Shown here piece after piece: positions 5,077-13,024 of a stretch of DNA of 64,000 bases. Within the stretch, counting starts at the first letter, position 1. Every line of letters begins with the position of its first letter. Origin of the DNA: Spirochaetaceae bacterium (lineage in GTDB: Bacteria; Spirochaetota; Leptospiria; Leptospirales; Leptonemataceae). The notes under the pieces are model-generated. The model saw only the letters and a program-made list of their open reading frames with translations, did no database searches and was not told the origin of the DNA. The position numbers and the translations under genes are program-made. The DNA is taken from contig PBUB01000004.1 in assembly GCA_002729885.1 (NCBI GenBank), positions 124,001-188,000 on the forward strand. Reading direction: 5' to 3'.

Positions 5077-6855
5077 ATGATTCAAGGCAATTATTTCGAA
5101 GATAATGAGGACATTCGTCTGCATCTGGAAGAGATCACTGACTGGGAAGAAATCGTAAATGCATACGAAGACGATTTTTCCGATGCAAAAGAGTATCAGA
5201 AATCCGGAGACGAAAAGCTGGCCATGGCTCCGGGCACGGTAAAGGATGCAGTAGACTATTACAGAACCATCATGGAAAGCTCCGGCGAGATCGCAGGAAC
5301 CATTGTAAGCCAGGCCTCTCAGCCCATGGATCATGAAGGTCTAAAGTATGATAGCGGAAAGGTTACTTTCCCGGCACCCATGGTAGAGGCCTATGAAGCT
5401 GTGAAAGATGCAGGCATCATGCCCTATGCTACGAACCGACGCTACGGCGGTCTGGGCATCCCTCTCACTGTACAGACTCTTCTAATGGAGATGACAAGTC
5501 GTGCGGATGCAGCCTTTGCCATCGCCATCGGCTGTGTAAACCTGGCCGAAACCATCGAAAAGTTTGGAACCCAGGAGATGATCGATAAATGGGTCCCTGC
5601 CATGTCACGGGGAGAAATCGTAGGTGCCATGGCTCTTACCGAGCCCAACTATGGATCCGATCTACCTAACGTTCAAACGAGAGCCGAACAGGATGAAAAC
5701 GGCAACTGGAAGATCAACGGCACAAAGAGATTCATTACTCATGCATGCGGTTTCGACAAGTATCCTTCTGTGATTCTGACTCTGGCCCGGACCGGAAAGC
5801 CCGAAAGTGGTGCCAGGGGACTGTCATTCTTTCTCGTAGAGGGAAAGGACGTACATGTTGCTAAAATCGAGCATAAGATGGGTCTTCACTGCTCTCCAAC
5901 TTGCGAGGTTGTGTATGAAGATACTCCTGCACAGTTAATCGGTGAAACCGGACAGGGGCTGGTAAAATATGCCATGGAAATGATGAATACCGCTCGCCTG
6001 AGTATTGCCGGTCAATCCATGGGCATTGCAGAAGCGGCCTACCAGGAAGCGAAGAAGTATGCTGGTGAGCGAGAGCAGTTTGGCAAGCTGATTCAAGAAA
6101 TTCCTGCCGTAAAAAAGATGCTGAACCGAATGGAGCGAGAAGTCATCGCCATGCGGGCCCTTCTGCAGGAAGCAGCCAGAACCATCGATAACTATCTATG
6201 GAGAAAAGAAAGACTTCTACATGAAGGCATGTCGGATCGCGATGTGCGAAAGGATGAAACGGTAAAAAGCTGGGAGAAGCTGGCCAACTTCTTTACTCCT
6301 CTTACCAAGTATTACATCTCCGAAACCTGTAATACACTGGCATTCGATGCTCTGCAAATTCATGGAGGCTCGGGTTACACAGAAGAATACGACGTTGCCC
6401 GAATCTATCGAGATGCTCGTATTACCAATATCTATGAAGGCACCACGCAGCTTCAGGTTGTGGCGGCCATCGGCGGAATTGTATCCGGTATGACTCCCAA
6501 CGGAAACCTCAGAGCCTATATCGAACAGGAAATGACTCGGTTTCAGCCTTCTCAGGAACTGCTGCAGGTTAAAGCCAGCTTCGAAGAGATTGTTTCCATC
6601 TACAAAGAAGTGAAGGGTGACTTGCGAGATGAACTTGCATTTGAAATCGTGCAATCCGCTGCCCGATTCATGATGGGACTTCTGGTAGAGCGCTCCAACT
6701 CTCGCGTAAACGCAGAAGCTGCGGCCAGACGTAACAAGCTTGTAAATGCCTTTAACCTGGAGAGCAAAGCGATTCTACAGGGCAATATCATTCGAATTCA
6801 GAATGCCATTGCTTCTGCCGATAGTTCAGCGACCAGGGAACCAGCGGCGGTTTAA
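5077..6855 (+). CDS. Acyl-CoA dehydrogenase, FAD-dependent, long form (592 aa)
   Basis: Introduces the alpha-beta double bond into a fatty acyl-CoA, the first step of beta-oxidation, passing electrons to ETF. The sequence shows the flavin/substrate motif [14 protein letters not shown], then GTKRFITHA, and the C-terminal [19 protein letters not shown] followed by [11 protein letters not shown], where the Glu is the usual catalytic base. About 100 extra C-terminal residues place it among the roughly 600-residue acyl-CoA dehydrogenases. ATG 5077 has an ideal AAGGAGG site nine bases upstream; an in-frame ATG at 5026 has none. The stop overlaps the phospholipase start (TAATG), so the two are translationally coupled. 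The operator at 5006-5021 suggests control by a lipid-sensing TetR regulator. Chain-length specificity cannot be read. Confidence 0.93.
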
Positions 6856-7796
6856 TGCATTTAGAGATTGGTCCTCTCAGAGTAGGAAAACCCAGGGTTG
6901 GATTGGCCCTGGGTTCTGGCTCGGCGCGAGGCTGGTCTCACATAGGTGTATTGAAGGAGCTGGAAGCTTCCGGCATTGAAATCGACATTGTTACAGGCAC
7001 TTCGGCAGGAGGAGTGATCGGCTCCTTCTACGCGGCTGATGCCCTGGAGCATGCAGAGGAATTCGCATCCAGGTATAAAAGCCCCCGTGTCACGCTTTCC
7101 TATATGGATTTCTCCGTGGGAACAGGTGGGCTCATCGGCGGAAAGCGATTCGTTGGGTTTCTCGAAGAGTATTTGCCGGTACGCAAATTCTCGGAACTAA
7201 AGCGACAGTTCGGTGTGGTGGCTACAGATCTGTCCTCCATGCAGGAGGTGCATATATCGGACGGAGCGCTGATTCCCGCAGTACGAGCTACAGTTGCGGT
7301 GCCCGGCTTTCTTTCTCCAGAGGTATTCGGGGATTACCAGCTGGTGGATGGAGGTTTGCTAAATCCGGTTCCTGTAAGCCTTGCCCGTAAACTGGGTGCA
7401 GATCTGGTCATTGCGGTGGACCTGGATGCCCATGCAGTTAGAGAAAAGGCTGAGGGAGTCACCGGTATCATGTATCGCACTATCGATACCATGATGAATC
7501 GAATTCGACTGGAAAACTATAAATCCCATCCTCCGGACATCACCATAGAACCGGTGCTGCAGGATTATGGATTCCTGGATTTCCATAGATCTCCAGAGGC
7601 CATCGAAGAAGGTCGACGGGCGGCCCGGAGCAAGATTCCCGAGATCAAACGAATGATCCATCGCCCATTAAGCCGTTCCAGCAGACTTCTGTTTAATCCG
7701 GGATCTATTCCAGATGCACTCCGCAGTCTGACCCTTCGCCAGGAAGCAGAGAAAAAGGGCGAAAAGTCAGAAAAGAAGGAAGGGAGTCAGCCTTGA
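6855..7796 (+). CDS. Patatin-like phospholipase (RssA/NTE type)
   Basis: A predicted lipid acyl hydrolase with a Ser-Asp dyad. The oxyanion-hole loop is GSGSARGWSHIGVL (residues 20-33), the nucleophile elbow is GTSAGG with Ser50, and the dyad Asp165 lies in VDGG. At 313 residues it is the size of single-domain bacterial patatins of the RssA/YlbK group. There is no signal peptide, so it probably acts on the inner face of the membrane. The C-terminus is rich in Lys and Glu. The start overlaps the acyl-CoA dehydrogenase stop by one base, which implies a shared mRNA and a joint role: releasing fatty acids from membrane lipid, then oxidising them. A tubulin-like cassette follows 172 bases downstream on the same strand. 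Confidence 0.9.
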   Translation: MHLEIGPLRVGKPRVGLALGSGSARGWSHIGVLKELEASGIEIDIVTGTSAGGVIGSFYAADALEHAEEFASRYKSPRVTLSYMDFSVGTGGLIGGKRFVGFLEEYLPVRKFSELKRQFGVVATDLSSMQEVHISDGALIPAVRATVAVPGFLSPEVFGDYQLVDGGLLNPVPVSLARKLGADLVIAVDLDAHAVREKAEGVTGIMYRTIDTMMNRIRLENYKSHPPDITIEPVLQDYGFLDFHRSPEAIEEGRRAARSKIPEIKRMIHRPLSRSSRLLFNPGSIPDALRSLTLRQEAEKKGEKSEKKEGSQP

Positions 7797-7968: not shown

Positions 7969-8235
7969 ATGTCGGAGAATCCTTACCTGCGTTCCATCCG
8001 CATCTTTGATCCTGCCGTGGATCTAAGTGAAGATAAAAGAAAAAGACCGGCTCGCAACGTAGAAACCGGTGGCGATCTGTTTGAAGAACTGCAGCAGGAG
8101 CCGGCGGGGGATACGGCAAAAGCTCCTGTAGCGAATCAAAAAAGCGCTGATGCCAGTAGCTCTTCCAGTGCGGGAAAATCGTCGGACGGATTGGAAGTGG
8201 TAGAAGACGAATCCATGGAAATCATCGATCTCTGA
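7969..8235 (+). CDS. Small acidic low-complexity protein, 88 aa, first gene of the tubulin-like cassette
   Basis: I recognise no family. The first 45 residues contain an arginine/lysine patch (DKRKRPARN). The rest is disordered in appearance: Ala/Gly/Ser-rich, with a run of serines (ASSSSSAGKSS), and it ends in the acidic tail EVVEDESMEIIDL. The stop is two bases before the start of the FHA-like membrane protein, so the two genes are almost certainly co-translated. A short protein with an acidic tail next to a polymer-forming GTPase homologue could be an adaptor, as acidic tails often serve as binding peptides, but this is inference. The ribosome site is weak (AGGGATG, distant). Confidence 0.6.
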   Translation: MSENPYLRSIRIFDPAVDLSEDKRKRPARNVETGGDLFEELQQEPAGDTAKAPVANQKSADASSSSSAGKSSDGLEVVEDESMEIIDL

Positions 8236-8237
8236 TT

Positions 8238-9134
8238 ATGGCAAACAAGACATACATTTCTGTACAGTCCTTTGTAGTGGTTCTGTTTCTTCTGGTGGCA
8301 GGACTTATTCCATTTTTAATTGGCGGTCAGTCTCTCTATCACCAGGTAATTGTAATTTCTCTGGGCCTGGGTTTCATGGCCGCTCTGGCCGCCGTATTTG
8401 TTCTTACATTGAAAGTGCATAAACTGAGACAGGGACCGCAGCCAGCAAAGAAGAAGGCTCCTCCTGCCAGATCAAAACCTGCTGCACAACCGGCACCGAA
8501 GACCATGGCGGCGGTCACTCCAAAGGAGTTACTGGATCCAGGGCTGGTGTATAGATTTCGCCTGGGCAAAGACAAGTCTCTGGAAAGCCAGTCCAAGCGA
8601 GTTATCATTGGCAGACATGAAGGTCATATCAAGACCCATAGCACTGAAATCATTGAAAACCATCTGGAAATTGAGTTTCGCATTCGTCAGGATCCAGATC
8701 GTGATATCTATAACACAGACAAAACACTCATCCAGAAATACTCTATTGATCTGAGACGTGCTGGAAAGGCTCTGATATACTTCCCCAACCAGGATGATAA
8801 AACCTTTCGAGAAATGAATTCCCGACAGAGGCTATTAATCCAATCGGAGGAAGATCCAGAAGGAGATCCTCATTTCAACAGCATACCCTCGGGCAAGCCG
8901 CTAAGAATCCAGCTCGGCGATCGATTGCGTCATGACGGGAAGTTTGTGGCCGGGTATTTTGAGTTTCATCTTTTCACAAAAGCTGTGGAGGTTGAGGCAG
9001 GAAATTACACTCGCATGGACCAGGATTTCTATCTTCGCCTGTATCGCATTTTCCCGGGCTACGATACCTCTCATCCATCCCAGGATGGCGCTTACCCCAT
9101 GATTGACCCCTTTCTTTCCAGGGAGGGTGGCTGA
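8238..9134 (+). CDS. Two-helix membrane protein with an FHA-like cytoplasmic domain
   Basis: Two hydrophobic helices lie near the N-terminus (about residues 10-30 and 38-60), followed by a Lys/Pro/Ala linker and then a beta-rich domain (about residues 100-255). That domain opens with RVIIGRHEGHI, resembling the IGR strand of forkhead-associated domains, and closes with IQLGDRLRHDGKFVAGYFEFHLF, like the last FHA strands. The phosphothreonine-binding Ser and His of true FHA domains are not clear, so the domain may be a relative that binds something else. The helices place it in the inner membrane with the domain in the cytoplasm. It sits two bases after the small acidic gene and 62 bases before the tubulin-like gene and probably anchors that protein. 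The FHA assignment is by eye. Confidence 0.72.
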   Translation: MANKTYISVQSFVVVLFLLVAGLIPFLIGGQSLYHQVIVISLGLGFMAALAAVFVLTLKVHKLRQGPQPAKKKAPPARSKPAAQPAPKTMAAVTPKELLDPGLVYRFRLGKDKSLESQSKRVIIGRHEGHIKTHSTEIIENHLEIEFRIRQDPDRDIYNTDKTLIQKYSIDLRRAGKALIYFPNQDDKTFREMNSRQRLLIQSEEDPEGDPHFNSIPSGKPLRIQLGDRLRHDGKFVAGYFEFHLFTKAVEVEAGNYTRMDQDFYLRLYRIFPGYDTSHPSQDGAYPMIDPFLSREGG

Positions 9135-9196
9135 TCTGGCAATCCTGCCAGCTCGAATGGCTGGCCGTTTGATTCGTTACTTTTAAAAGGTTCTGC

Positions 9197-12100
9197 ATGA
9201 GTGATTCCACTTTCTTTCAATCCGCCACCAGAGTCCTGAAGGAAAACCTGCCCATGGCGCGCAAATCCCTGATCATAGGGATGGGCGGATCGGGTATGAA
9301 GGGTATACTTTCGGCTCGCTCTCAAATTGAGCGCGAGATGCCATCAGAGGCCCGCACCTATATGCGATGGATTGGTATAGATACCACAGATATAGGGACC
9401 AGCATTGAAGGGAAGGGAGAGTCCTATCGCTTTCCTGGAAATGAGCAGCATTTCCAGGAAGACCGGCGAATGCTCTACATCGGGGCGCCCACTCCATCCG
9501 AACTCAGTCTGAGCTATCTAAAAGGGCTGAGGGAAAATGATCCTGCCTATAAATGGCTGCCGGATCCCGATATTTACAGGATCTCCACCAGGTCAGGCCA
9601 GGGCGCGAATCAGACCAGAGCGCTGGGTAGACTTGCATTCTTCCATAATTACGAAAAGATTCGCTCAGCCCTGGTAGCCGAAAAGGAAAGGCTGGAAGCC
9701 ATGAGCAATGATCCAGCTTATTTTCGCCTGATGGATGTGCAGGAAAAGTCCGCCGTAGAAGTGCTTGATCTGGATGTTGAGCTCAAACCAGGAAAGGTTC
9801 GCTATCACTTTTCTGACTATGTGCCCGGTCACAACGATATCCTGGACCTGGAGCTGGATGAAGAAACAAGGACCATTCTCTGTCCCCATATCCCCCTGGA
9901 AAAGATAAGTCCCGAGATCTTTCCCCGGGATGACAAAGGATACTATTTCGAGATTAATCCTGAACGAACCAGCATGAAGCATCTGGGATTTCAGATCAAG
10001 CATGCTCCCCGGGAAGGACAGATCAGCATTTTCCTCACGGCTTCGGTGGTGGGCGGTACCGGAAACGGTATGCTGCTGGATATGGCAGCCATGATTCATG
10101 ATATCTTCAAAGATACCTGGCCTGCACCCAAGCTATATGGAATCATCGTACTTCCATCTGCTTTTAAACGTGTGGTCTACAATCAAAACGCAAGAGCCAA
10201 TGCATACGCCGCCCTCAAGGAATTGGATTATTTTCAGAGCGGAAATGCCTTCGAAGCAACCTATCCCAATGGCCGTCACGTTAAGCTGGAGGACAGACTC
10301 TTTAAAGATGGCATGCTCTATCTTCTGGATGTAGAAAACCTTTCCGGTAATATCCTCCAGGACCGGGACCAGGTTCAGGAATTAACGGGTCAGTTCATTC
10401 ACACGTTTGTAAGCTCCACGGTGGGCGGCGCCATCGAAGAGAGAATGGTGAATGATTCCACCCGGGCCAGTATCTATTTTCCGGAGGATGGATCCGAGCC
10501 AGCCAGAAGAGCCAGTTATAATTCCTTTGGTATTTCTCGTGTAATGTATCCGGTGCCCATCCTGCGCGAGGTGGGCTTCAAGCTGGCAGCCCTTAGAATT
10601 ATTAAGCGATTCCATGAAAAAGTAGATCAGAAGCTTCTGAACGAAACCTTCGGTGATCTCAATCGAGGACTGGTTCGAGCCCTGAGACTGAACTGTGCTT
10701 TGATCTTTGAACGAATGTATCCGGATTATCGCCTGGACTGGAAAGCGGAGTTCAATGGATATCGAGACCGAATCCAGAGAAGTATGCGGAGCGGCGATCG
10801 TAGCGGTGTGGTATCTATCCTGGAGCTCATGCGACGGGACTATGGCCGGGGCGAAATGGAGCATCATAAAGACCGGCTTCTACGTCGTATGGAAAGCCGA
10901 TGGCGCCTGGAGCTGGAAAAGGTTCAGCAGGTTATGGAAGAGGCTGTGGCGGAAATCACGGCAGATCCTTCCAGGGGCTTTCTGTTTACTCGCGCCTTGC
11001 TGGACCGGGTAATGGAACGCCTGGAATTCTTCCAGGGACTCTGCTACGAAAGCAGGGTAGGGCTGAACTATTACGCGGATTCAGAAATCGAAGAACAACT
11101 ACGTGCACTGGATACCGGGGACTTCAATGCGAAGCGCGTAGAAGCTGTATATACAATGATTCGTCTGAATCATCTGCAGCTAATCCATGAATCCATGCTG
11201 CAGGCCACAGAAGAGTTTTTGCGAGAATTCAAAGGATCACTCTATCAGCTCAGAAATGAAACCCTGGCTCCTCTGGAGGATCGGCTACAGACCCTGGCTC
11301 ATAGCCTGCATGATGAGATTCAAAAAAGCCACTTTGAATTACTGCAAAAGAAGAACCCTTTGTTCTTCTATCTGGTGAATAAGCCAGAGATCAAAGGTTT
11401 CATAAATCGGCACTTTGGCGCCAGACTCAGTCTGGACGATCTATGCAATGAAGTGGATTTTCTGGGCATGGACCGGGGTGATGATACGACTCAGATTGTG
11501 CAGACGTATTTGATGGGCCGCTTTGGCCTGGAAGTGCTGGAACGTAGTCAATCCGAGATGGAAGAATTGATCCATCAGGAGCTGGGACTGGAGATTCTAC
11601 AGAAAAGCCCGGAGGAAGCCCGCGAGATTCTATACGGCCAGCAAGGCGATGACCGTCAGTGGAAAATCGATGAGGCCACCATGAACCGAATCGAGGTAGA
11701 TCGTCTGCGAGCCGGTCTATTCCAGGTCATTCAAAAGAGATTTGCAGGATTTTCCTTTGAGAATCTCTCCATTCAGGATGTTCTCAGAGAGAAAAAAATT
11801 GAGCTCAAAAGCCTTCTTACCAAGCTGGATACATATTCCCGGCCCTATACATCCGCAAACTTCAACGGGCTGCGGTCCATGGAGTATTTTCGAGCGGTAA
11901 CTCAATTTCCATTGAATGTGTTCGAAGAAGGAGACAGCGCACCGGAGCGAGCTCAGAATGATCTGCCCCCCAGAATGGATCATTATACCAAACGATCAAC
12001 GGTCAGTCCCAATATCTCTGTAGAGTGCTTTGAGGTGCCTAATCTGGTTAAGCCCTATGAAATTATTTCCATGGGCATCGTTCTGGGTTTTCCGCTTTTC

Positions 12101-13024
12101 CGTGTGAATGGGCTGAACGATTGCGTAAATGATTACCATGATTTAATGCACCGTCGAGAACATCCTCTGCATCTTTTCAACAATCCTTCTTTTGATGCGA
12201 AATACTTTCCGGATCCCTATCGCACCAGAAACTATCTTAATCCAAAACAGCTCTGGAACGGTCTTCTGGAGTTTCAACTGCTTGAAAAGAAAGCCGGTGG
12301 TTACGAATACGCAGAAAGCATACACGATGGCATGCGGCAAATCCTGGCCGGGGAAACCTATTCATCCGGAATTCGCAAGCTGATGGATGAGGTTCAGGCT
12401 GGCGGCGGACTGGAGAAGATCAGTCCAGAACTCTTTGCGCGATGCCTGGCAGGCCCGGGCATACTCAAAAAGAACAAAGATGGGCAGATCTACTTTCGCA
12501 AAGAATACGATCTTATTATTCGAGATATTCTCGATGGAGATGGAACCGGACAGAGAGCCAGCGAAGCGAACCTGACTAAAGAGCAGTATCTGGAGCAAAA
12601 AACCAGAGCCGTATATTTCAAGGGAATGGGCGATCTGGTGAAGTTTGTCTTCTCCAACGCGAAAGTGAAGTCCTTTTTGCTGACAGATCTGCAGCGTATT
12701 TTTCAGGATACCAGAGGAAGCCAGATCAGCGGCGCGGCGGTTCAAATACCTCGGTCAAAACTGGCATCTATTAAGCTGCATTCCTTCAAAGACGAGTTTC
12801 AGTTCTACGATTACTTCCAGACCAACGGTTCTCTGGCCTGGCAGGATTTTCTCAAAAATGAGATTGTGCAGAAAGTGGATTCAGTACTGAGAACTTACAG
12901 ACATCCCCAGGATCCAACCCTGCCGGACCGGGCAAGGATGGAAGCCTATCTCGAGGAACGCAAGGATTCCATCCCATTCGTAGCTTTATGGGAACTAAAG
13001 GTGAAGCATGGAGTAATCCGCTAA
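9197..13024 (+). CDS. Large tubulin/FtsZ-superfamily-like protein (1275 aa)
   Basis: The N-terminal third resembles the tubulin-like family of bacteria (Pfam Tubulin_2 type). The glycine loop LIIGMGGSGMKG lies at residues 25-36, QTRALGRLAFF near 140, and the nucleotide-binding signature VVGGTGNGM covers residues 284-292, with GGTGNG at 286-291 matching the GGTGSG loop of tubulin and FtsZ. NQNARANAYAALKELDYF follows. The remaining roughly 800 residues are long, charged and helical and I recognise nothing in them. There is no signal peptide or membrane helix, so it is cytoplasmic, probably held at the membrane by the two-helix protein just upstream. It is far larger than FtsZ (about 400 aa), so it is not the division protein. 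A bidirectional terminator ends the unit at 13050-13073. Polymerisation and GTPase activity are inferred. Confidence 0.85.
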   Translation: MSDSTFFQSATRVLKENLPMARKSLIIGMGGSGMKGILSARSQIEREMPSEARTYMRWIGIDTTDIGTSIEGKGESYRFPGNEQHFQEDRRMLYIGAPTPSELSLSYLKGLRENDPAYKWLPDPDIYRISTRSGQGANQTRALGRLAFFHNYEKIRSALVAEKERLEAMSNDPAYFRLMDVQEKSAVEVLDLDVELKPGKVRYHFSDYVPGHNDILDLELDEETRTILCPHIPLEKISPEIFPRDDKGYYFEINPERTSMKHLGFQIKHAPREGQISIFLTASVVGGTGNGMLLDMAAMIHDIFKDTWPAPKLYGIIVLPSAFKRVVYNQNARANAYAALKELDYFQSGNAFEATYPNGRHVKLEDRLFKDGMLYLLDVENLSGNILQDRDQVQELTGQFIHTFVSSTVGGAIEERMVNDSTRASIYFPEDGSEPARRASYNSFGISRVMYPVPILREVGFKLAALRIIKRFHEKVDQKLLNETFGDLNRGLVRALRLNCALIFERMYPDYRLDWKAEFNGYRDRIQRSMRSGDRSGVVSILELMRRDYGRGEMEHHKDRLLRRMESRWRLELEKVQQVMEEAVAEITADPSRGFLFTRALLDRVMERLEFFQGLCYESRVGLNYYADSEIEEQLRALDTGDFNAKRVEAVYTMIRLNHLQLIHESMLQATEEFLREFKGSLYQLRNETLAPLEDRLQTLAHSLHDEIQKSHFELLQKKNPLFFYLVNKPEIKGFINRHFGARLSLDDLCNEVDFLGMDRGDDTTQIVQTYLMGRFGLEVLERSQSEMEELIHQELGLEILQKSPEEAREILYGQQGDDRQWKIDEATMNRIEVDRLRAGLFQVIQKRFAGFSFENLSIQDVLREKKIELKSLLTKLDTYSRPYTSANFNGLRSMEYFRAVTQFPLNVFEEGDSAPERAQNDLPPRMDHYTKRSTVSPNISVECFEVPNLVKPYEIISMGIVLGFPLFRVNGLNDCVNDYHDLMHRREHPLHLFNNPSFDAKYFPDPYRTRNYLNPKQLWNGLLEFQLLEKKAGGYEYAESIHDGMRQILAGETYSSGIRKLMDEVQAGGGLEKISPELFARCLAGPGILKKNKDGQIYFRKEYDLIIRDILDGDGTGQRASEANLTKEQYLEQKTRAVYFKGMGDLVKFVFSNAKVKSFLLTDLQRIFQDTRGSQISGAAVQIPRSKLASIKLHSFKDEFQFYDYFQTNGSLAWQDFLKNEIVQKVDSVLRTYRHPQDPTLPDRARMEAYLEERKDSIPFVALWELKVKHGVIR

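Follow-up and report, generated by a model that had tools for sequence, protein, structure and literature searches.

Introduction

Among the relatives of FtsZ in bacteria, the FtsZl1 or Tubulin_2 family was described in 2010 by Makarova and Koonin (PMC2875224), and in the available parts of that paper its operon contexts comprise vWA, GTPase, kinase and OmpA domains, which are typical, not obligatory. On the biochemistry of Tubulin_2 proteins no report was found in the literature examined. The window of the present study, i.e. the whole stretch of 64,000 nucleotides analysed (contig PBUB01000004.1 of a Spirochaetaceae bacterium, positions 124,001 to 188,000), holds a cassette in which such a protein of 1275 amino acids (aa) follows two smaller ones of 88 and 298 aa. 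A preliminary description, made from the letters of the stretch, had named these three tandem genes, and the open reading frames (ORFs) bore this out, all of them lying on the forward strand with intergenic gaps of 2 bp and then 62 bp. The genome is spirochaetal, its congeners being bins under the names Leptospiraceae and Spirochaetaceae bacterium. New here is the spirochaete cassette variant; the FtsZl1/Tubulin_2 kind of protein was already known.

Measured against FtsZl1, as far as the accessible parts of the source describe it, the cassette tubulin agrees in its match to PF13809 above the cut-off, its large size, its helical region with a C-terminal domain, its membrane-protein partners and the T1 and T4 glycine loops of the superfamily, T4 reading GGTGNG instead of GGGTG(S/T)G. 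It differs in a sharp subfamily boundary and in a beta-rich insert before the T4 loop. Its partners are a putative membrane anchor and a beta-propeller protein or short stub, not vWA, GTPase, kinase or OmpA proteins, so that the gene set does differ from the published contexts, as had been supposed.

Distribution and boundary of the subfamily

The cassette is conserved and co-inherited in scattered spirochaetes. In a survey sample of 296 Spirochaetota genomes searched for PF13809, 23 carriers were found, 20 of which were read as possessing the long type, i.e. genes of ~1270-1300 aa or fragments of them, cut or broken. Strong matches of the membrane protein (E 5.6e-113 or better) occurred in 19 genomes and of the propeller protein (E 1.6e-85 or better) in 15, all of them within the 20 long-type carriers; weak matches of the membrane protein (E 1e-4 to 7e-4) were confined to four further genomes, and other propeller matches reached at most 114 bits. 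The remaining five carriers, the family-f1 genomes, display a short stub instead of the propeller. Each of the 19 loci that have the long tubulin and the membrane protein, that of the window among them, shows the order of stub or propeller, membrane protein and tubulin on one strand, which therefore is not due to chance. According to simple ORF calls, no gene cluster besides the three of the cassette is common to all loci; the stubs of L041 and L042 escaped the automatic gene caller and came from a motif scan. The synteny with both upstream genes on which the preliminary description had laid weight held in every such locus, and neither of the outcomes that it named as refuting was seen, save in genome G160. 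There the tubulin is cut at a contig end, no membrane protein was detected, and the propeller stands on a different contig, again without a membrane protein next to it. Within the order (30 genomes), the tubulin is present in six, the membrane protein in the same six and the propeller in one of these.

Some copies are incomplete: G219 is cut by a contig end, an in-frame stop ends the G195 membrane protein early, and the propeller protein of G183 is in two pieces. Broken tubulin frames in G178 and G183 (L051, L052) reflect either decay or assembly error. Only other Tubulin_2 types were found in G028, G086 and G197, and the long type together with another type in G184. The second Tubulin_2 gene of G184 adjoins vWA and DEAD-box protein genes (L058 1063-13033), closer to the published FtsZl1 context, and in G197 another Tubulin_2 type lies beside vWA and Hsp70-like protein genes (L059 3095-12501).

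In wider protein space, a profile of 16 long types was run against ~5.8 billion proteins and the 7992 best candidates were scored; among the 120 of 125 matches listed, 76 proteins had an E value displayed as 0, and the next stood at 2.3e-24 with 18% query coverage. Names among these listed matches include Leptospira ryugenii, Leptospira sp. GIMC2001, further Leptospira sp. and a Spirochaetes bacterium; in addition, a bin under the label Candidatus Hydrogenedentota has a tubulin identical to the protein of the G160 contig. The membrane protein search gave 159 matches, and the 120 listed, all with E 1.4e-101 or better, include L. ryugenii, L. ognonensis and Leptospira sp. 96542. In L. ryugenii the genes of these two proteins carry neighbouring tags, LPTSP4_15060 and LPTSP4_15070. 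The long-type tubulin is its own Tubulin_2 subfamily, spirochaetal and with two fixed partners.

Architecture of the gene products

The features of the cassette, all on the forward strand, are as follows (positions in the window):

7969..8235, +, gene of the 88-aa acidic protein (ORF; without Pfam family)
7969..8034, +, N-terminal motif of the 88-aa protein, residues 1-22, common to the ~400-aa propeller proteins
8188..8232, +, acidic C-terminal tail of the 88-aa protein, residues 74-88, nearly identical in three congeners
8238..9134, +, gene of the 298-aa membrane protein, anchor candidate (ORF, hydropathy, model)
8241..8429, +, two predicted transmembrane (TM) helices of the membrane protein, residues 2-28 and 33-64 (model, hydropathy)
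8532..8999, +, predicted FHA-like cytoplasmic domain, residues ~99-254 (model)
9197..13024, +, gene of the 1275-aa Tubulin_2 protein (ORF, Pfam, conserved blocks, model)
9257..10609, +, tubulin GTPase part, residues ~21-471, insert included (Pfam, model)
9278..9304, +, T1-type loop GMGGSGMKG, residues 28-36 (conserved block)
9737..10018, +, beta-rich insert ahead of the T4 loop, residues ~181-274, characteristic of long-type proteins (split Tubulin_2 match, model)
10052..10069, +, T4-type loop GGTGNG, residues 286-291 (conserved block)
10628..11836, +, helical stretch, residues ~478-880, apparently interrupting the tubulin fold (model; approximate boundaries inferred)
11864..12226, +, presumed second tubulin subdomain, residues ~890-1010 (model)

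The 1275-aa protein matched the Tubulin_2 family PF13809 with an E value of 1.2e-42 (146.9 bits, cut-off 27), whereas PF00091 stayed below its cut-off (21.7 bits vs 33) and the FtsZ C-terminal family was not among the Pfam families listed for it; the comparison of profiles proposed beforehand hence decided for Tubulin_2. Both loops noticed earlier lie within conserved blocks, and superfamily and loop signatures are shared with FtsZ. No other PF13809 gene was found in the genome of the window, and plain FtsZ was rejected because a separate FtsZ-type gene exists on another contig of this genome; such a gene accompanies the cassette tubulin in all three genomes checked. NCBIfam offered no family for it, and no sequence relatives of solved structure appeared at E<=1.

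In the predicted structure, which leaves out residues 1201-1275, the anticipated tubulin-like N-terminal fold is present. Archaeal CetZ and tubulins matched the model nearly end to end at 9-17% identity, and unlike CetZ, BtubAB, gamma-tubulin and alpha/beta tubulin the cassette tubulin apparently contains ~400 inserted helical residues. A helical region and then a further C-terminal domain follow the GTPase part in the model, and the Tubulin_2 match is broken in two at the beta-rich insert before T4; the distance between T1 and T4 is shorter in the outgroup proteins than in the long type. The model thus predicts a tubulin fold with both subdomains, interrupted by the helical stretch, and residues ~890-1010 probably complete it as the second subdomain. 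The helical C-terminal region of ~800 residues named in the preliminary description therefore stands as mostly helical, with the reservation that this part of it probably belongs to the tubulin fold.

For the membrane protein, the two helices expected were recovered by hydropathy (4-34, 35-61) and by the model. Among 68 anchors, two hydrophobic segments were counted in 17 and one in 51, and 15 of the 17 anchors closest to that of the window have two. The model of the cytoplasmic domain resembles FHA domains, and the protein is predicted to consist of one or two TM helices and an FHA-like cytoplasmic domain. An FHA match in Pfam was found neither for the window's protein nor among the 25 of 58 families listed for the 68 members. 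FHA domains bind phosphothreonine through a motif of R, S and H. At the aligned positions, H is present in all 68 anchors, R in eight and S in none; Q replaces R after a conserved G in 59, and at position -3 from the conserved histidine none of the anchors has a serine. In contrast to FHA-domain proteins, the FHA-like domain is fused to TM helices and lacks the serine of the binding motif. A search of solved structures yielded four matches (E 0.4-3.2), all within the first ~100 positions, and the NCBIfam families PspM and SCO2097 match the TM region weakly, far below cut-off. Apart from its cassette, G192 carries the membrane protein once more at an unlinked site (L060 5259-6110, E 1.6e-81). 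Shorter relatives with weak matches lie at L061 4216-4866, L062 3902-4552, L063 4174-4821 and L064 4141-4701; three of them adjoin a gene resembling threonine synthase by eye, and none has a Pfam family above cut-off.

The 88-aa protein is acidic, as had been stated (isoelectric point 4.3), and represents the short form, without the propeller, of a beta-propeller protein of ~400 aa, with which it has only the N-terminal motif of ~22 aa in common. Its residues ~1-22 align with the start of the ~400-aa proteins that occupy the same locus position in other families; a scan of three of these gave matches to PF13570 and PF13360 (PF13360 79.9-88.9 bits, cut-off 27.6), the families of propellers of the BamB/PQQ type, from which they differ in their docking-like N-terminal motif. 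In the 88-aa protein, without any Pfam family, propeller repeats are lacking, and the window's family retains motif and tail only. An independent family of small proteins was dropped as an explanation, because the motif also starts the propeller proteins. The acidic, linked partner of the preliminary description was hence retained, not as a free-standing family but as a short form. Among three congeners, the stubs are 69-79% identical, with nonsynonymous divergence (dN) of 0.20-0.26 while synonymous divergence (dS) is saturated in two of the pairs and amounts to 3.35 in the remaining one; these values argue that the gene is translated and under constraint. In the five family-f1 carriers, a search for a propeller relocated elsewhere found none at E<=1e-20; the loss of the propeller coincides with the change between one and two hydrophobic segments in the anchor.

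Genomic surroundings

On the 5' side, the cassette is preceded by an acyl-CoA dehydrogenase gene and a patatin-like phospholipase gene (6855-7796), and the gene on its 3' side lies on the opposite strand and has no Pfam family above cut-off. No vWA, GTPase, kinase or OmpA domains were detected by the Pfam scan in four window neighbours or in the anchor and propeller proteins scanned. This bears on the possibility that the cassette represents nothing other than FtsZl1 membrane remodelling of the vWA type already published, with neighbours that are poorly annotated. Such a system would share the Pfam family and the membrane partners typical of FtsZl1 operons (PMC2875224), but the missing domains, together with the separate vWA-type Tubulin_2 gene that G184 has besides its cassette, have already weakened this reading, and we consider it very unlikely.

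Four family-f1 loci (the window, L040, L041 and L042) have a patatin-like phospholipase gene directly upstream of their cassette, and at L057 a gene of the same sequence cluster stands directly downstream; these neighbours might hint at a link to membrane lipids. Promoter-like and terminator-like sites were not enriched over shuffles (4 vs a mean of 7.1, and 8 vs 6.8). A defence system was rejected, no PADLOC family being found at E<=1, and so was a phage protein, with weak PHROG matches of which the best (E 5e-4, membrane protein) concerns a family of unknown function.

Possible function

We propose, with the chances standing about even, that the cassette tubulin forms a polymer which depends on GTP and lines the membrane from within, anchored by the FHA-like membrane protein; anchoring of a polymer by this protein had been supposed in the preliminary description and is plausible. 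GTP would be bound through the retained T1 and T4 loops, the tubulin would polymerise with it, and the membrane protein would tether the polymer beneath the cell membrane. The motif of ~22 residues probably is a docking part for tubulin or anchor, because motif and acidic tail were kept in the window's family when the propeller was lost. The likely product would be a filament or a bundle of tubules along the membrane with a structural role, and in Leptonema illini a candidate for the cytoplasmic tubules of that species.

Alternatively, though this seems unlikely to us, the tubulin-like protein may be a nucleotide switch that does not polymerise and acts as a membrane-bound scaffold for the assembly of another complex; it is equally doubtful that GTP state, FHA-like domain and propeller would then control this assembly. 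Long helical stretches and propellers are common in scaffolds. Several points weigh against a polymer: the ~400-residue helical stretch and the propeller suit a scaffold, the canonical hydrolysis loop was not identified in the cassette tubulin, and T6-H7 is not identifiable in FtsZl1, for which the consulted parts of the source call a filament-free mode possible, if less likely (PMC2875224). Against the switch, the model retains both tubulin subdomains, which would build the protofilament contacts as in tubulins.

A cultured carrier allows the proposed membrane-bound polymer to be set beside cell structure. G137, which bears a family-f1 cassette with a tubulin 60.5% identical to that of the window, is most likely Leptonema illini. 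According to the accessible text of PMC3746420, this species has cytoplasmic tubules beneath the membrane, which were among the grounds for splitting Leptonema from Leptospira, and no protein of the tubules is named there; the same source calls the species non-pathogenic for those animals in which it was tested, although one isolate came from a patient with HIV. In the available part of PMC8533607 cytoplasmic tubules are tabulated as absent in Lyme Borrelia. The literature search found no paper combining spirochete, cytoplasmic tubules and tubulin, and no link between tubulin and Leptonema in titles or abstract openings; 'tubul' is absent from the text of PMC13067680. G137 shows two Tubulin-family matches, one strong and FtsZ-type, the other the cassette tubulin. 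Provided that the tubules belong to the tubulin family, the latter is therefore the sole non-FtsZ candidate found in G137.

It is conceivable, if rather improbable, that the cassette gives rise to the cytoplasmic tubules used in 1979 to divide Leptonema from Leptospira. Just as tentatively, such tubules would consist of a membrane-anchored tubulin of interrupted fold with a helical arm of ~400 residues, set apart from BtubAB mini-microtubules and TubZ filaments. In Treponema, cytoplasmic filaments that likewise lie under the membrane are ascribed to CfpA. It is somewhat more probable than not that the Leptonema tubules are made by another protein, for example a CfpA-like filament protein, and that the role of the cassette is unrelated. 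Position and presence tie cassette and tubules together as a correlation in one species, and an examination of cassette-carrying Leptospira for tubules was not found in the literature, which likewise speaks against a tubule-building cassette; in its favour stands the cassette tubulin as the only non-FtsZ match of the Tubulin family found in G137.

Conclusions

The subfamily described here provides Tubulin_2 with fixed partners, a predicted membrane anchor and a possible explanation of the puzzling C-terminal region, and its cultured carrier, most likely Leptonema illini, has tubules at the expected place. If the interrupted fold is true, it would change the reading of the whole Tubulin_2 family, and if the cassette does build the tubules, the make-up of spirochaete cytoplasmic tubules would become testable by the removal of a single gene.
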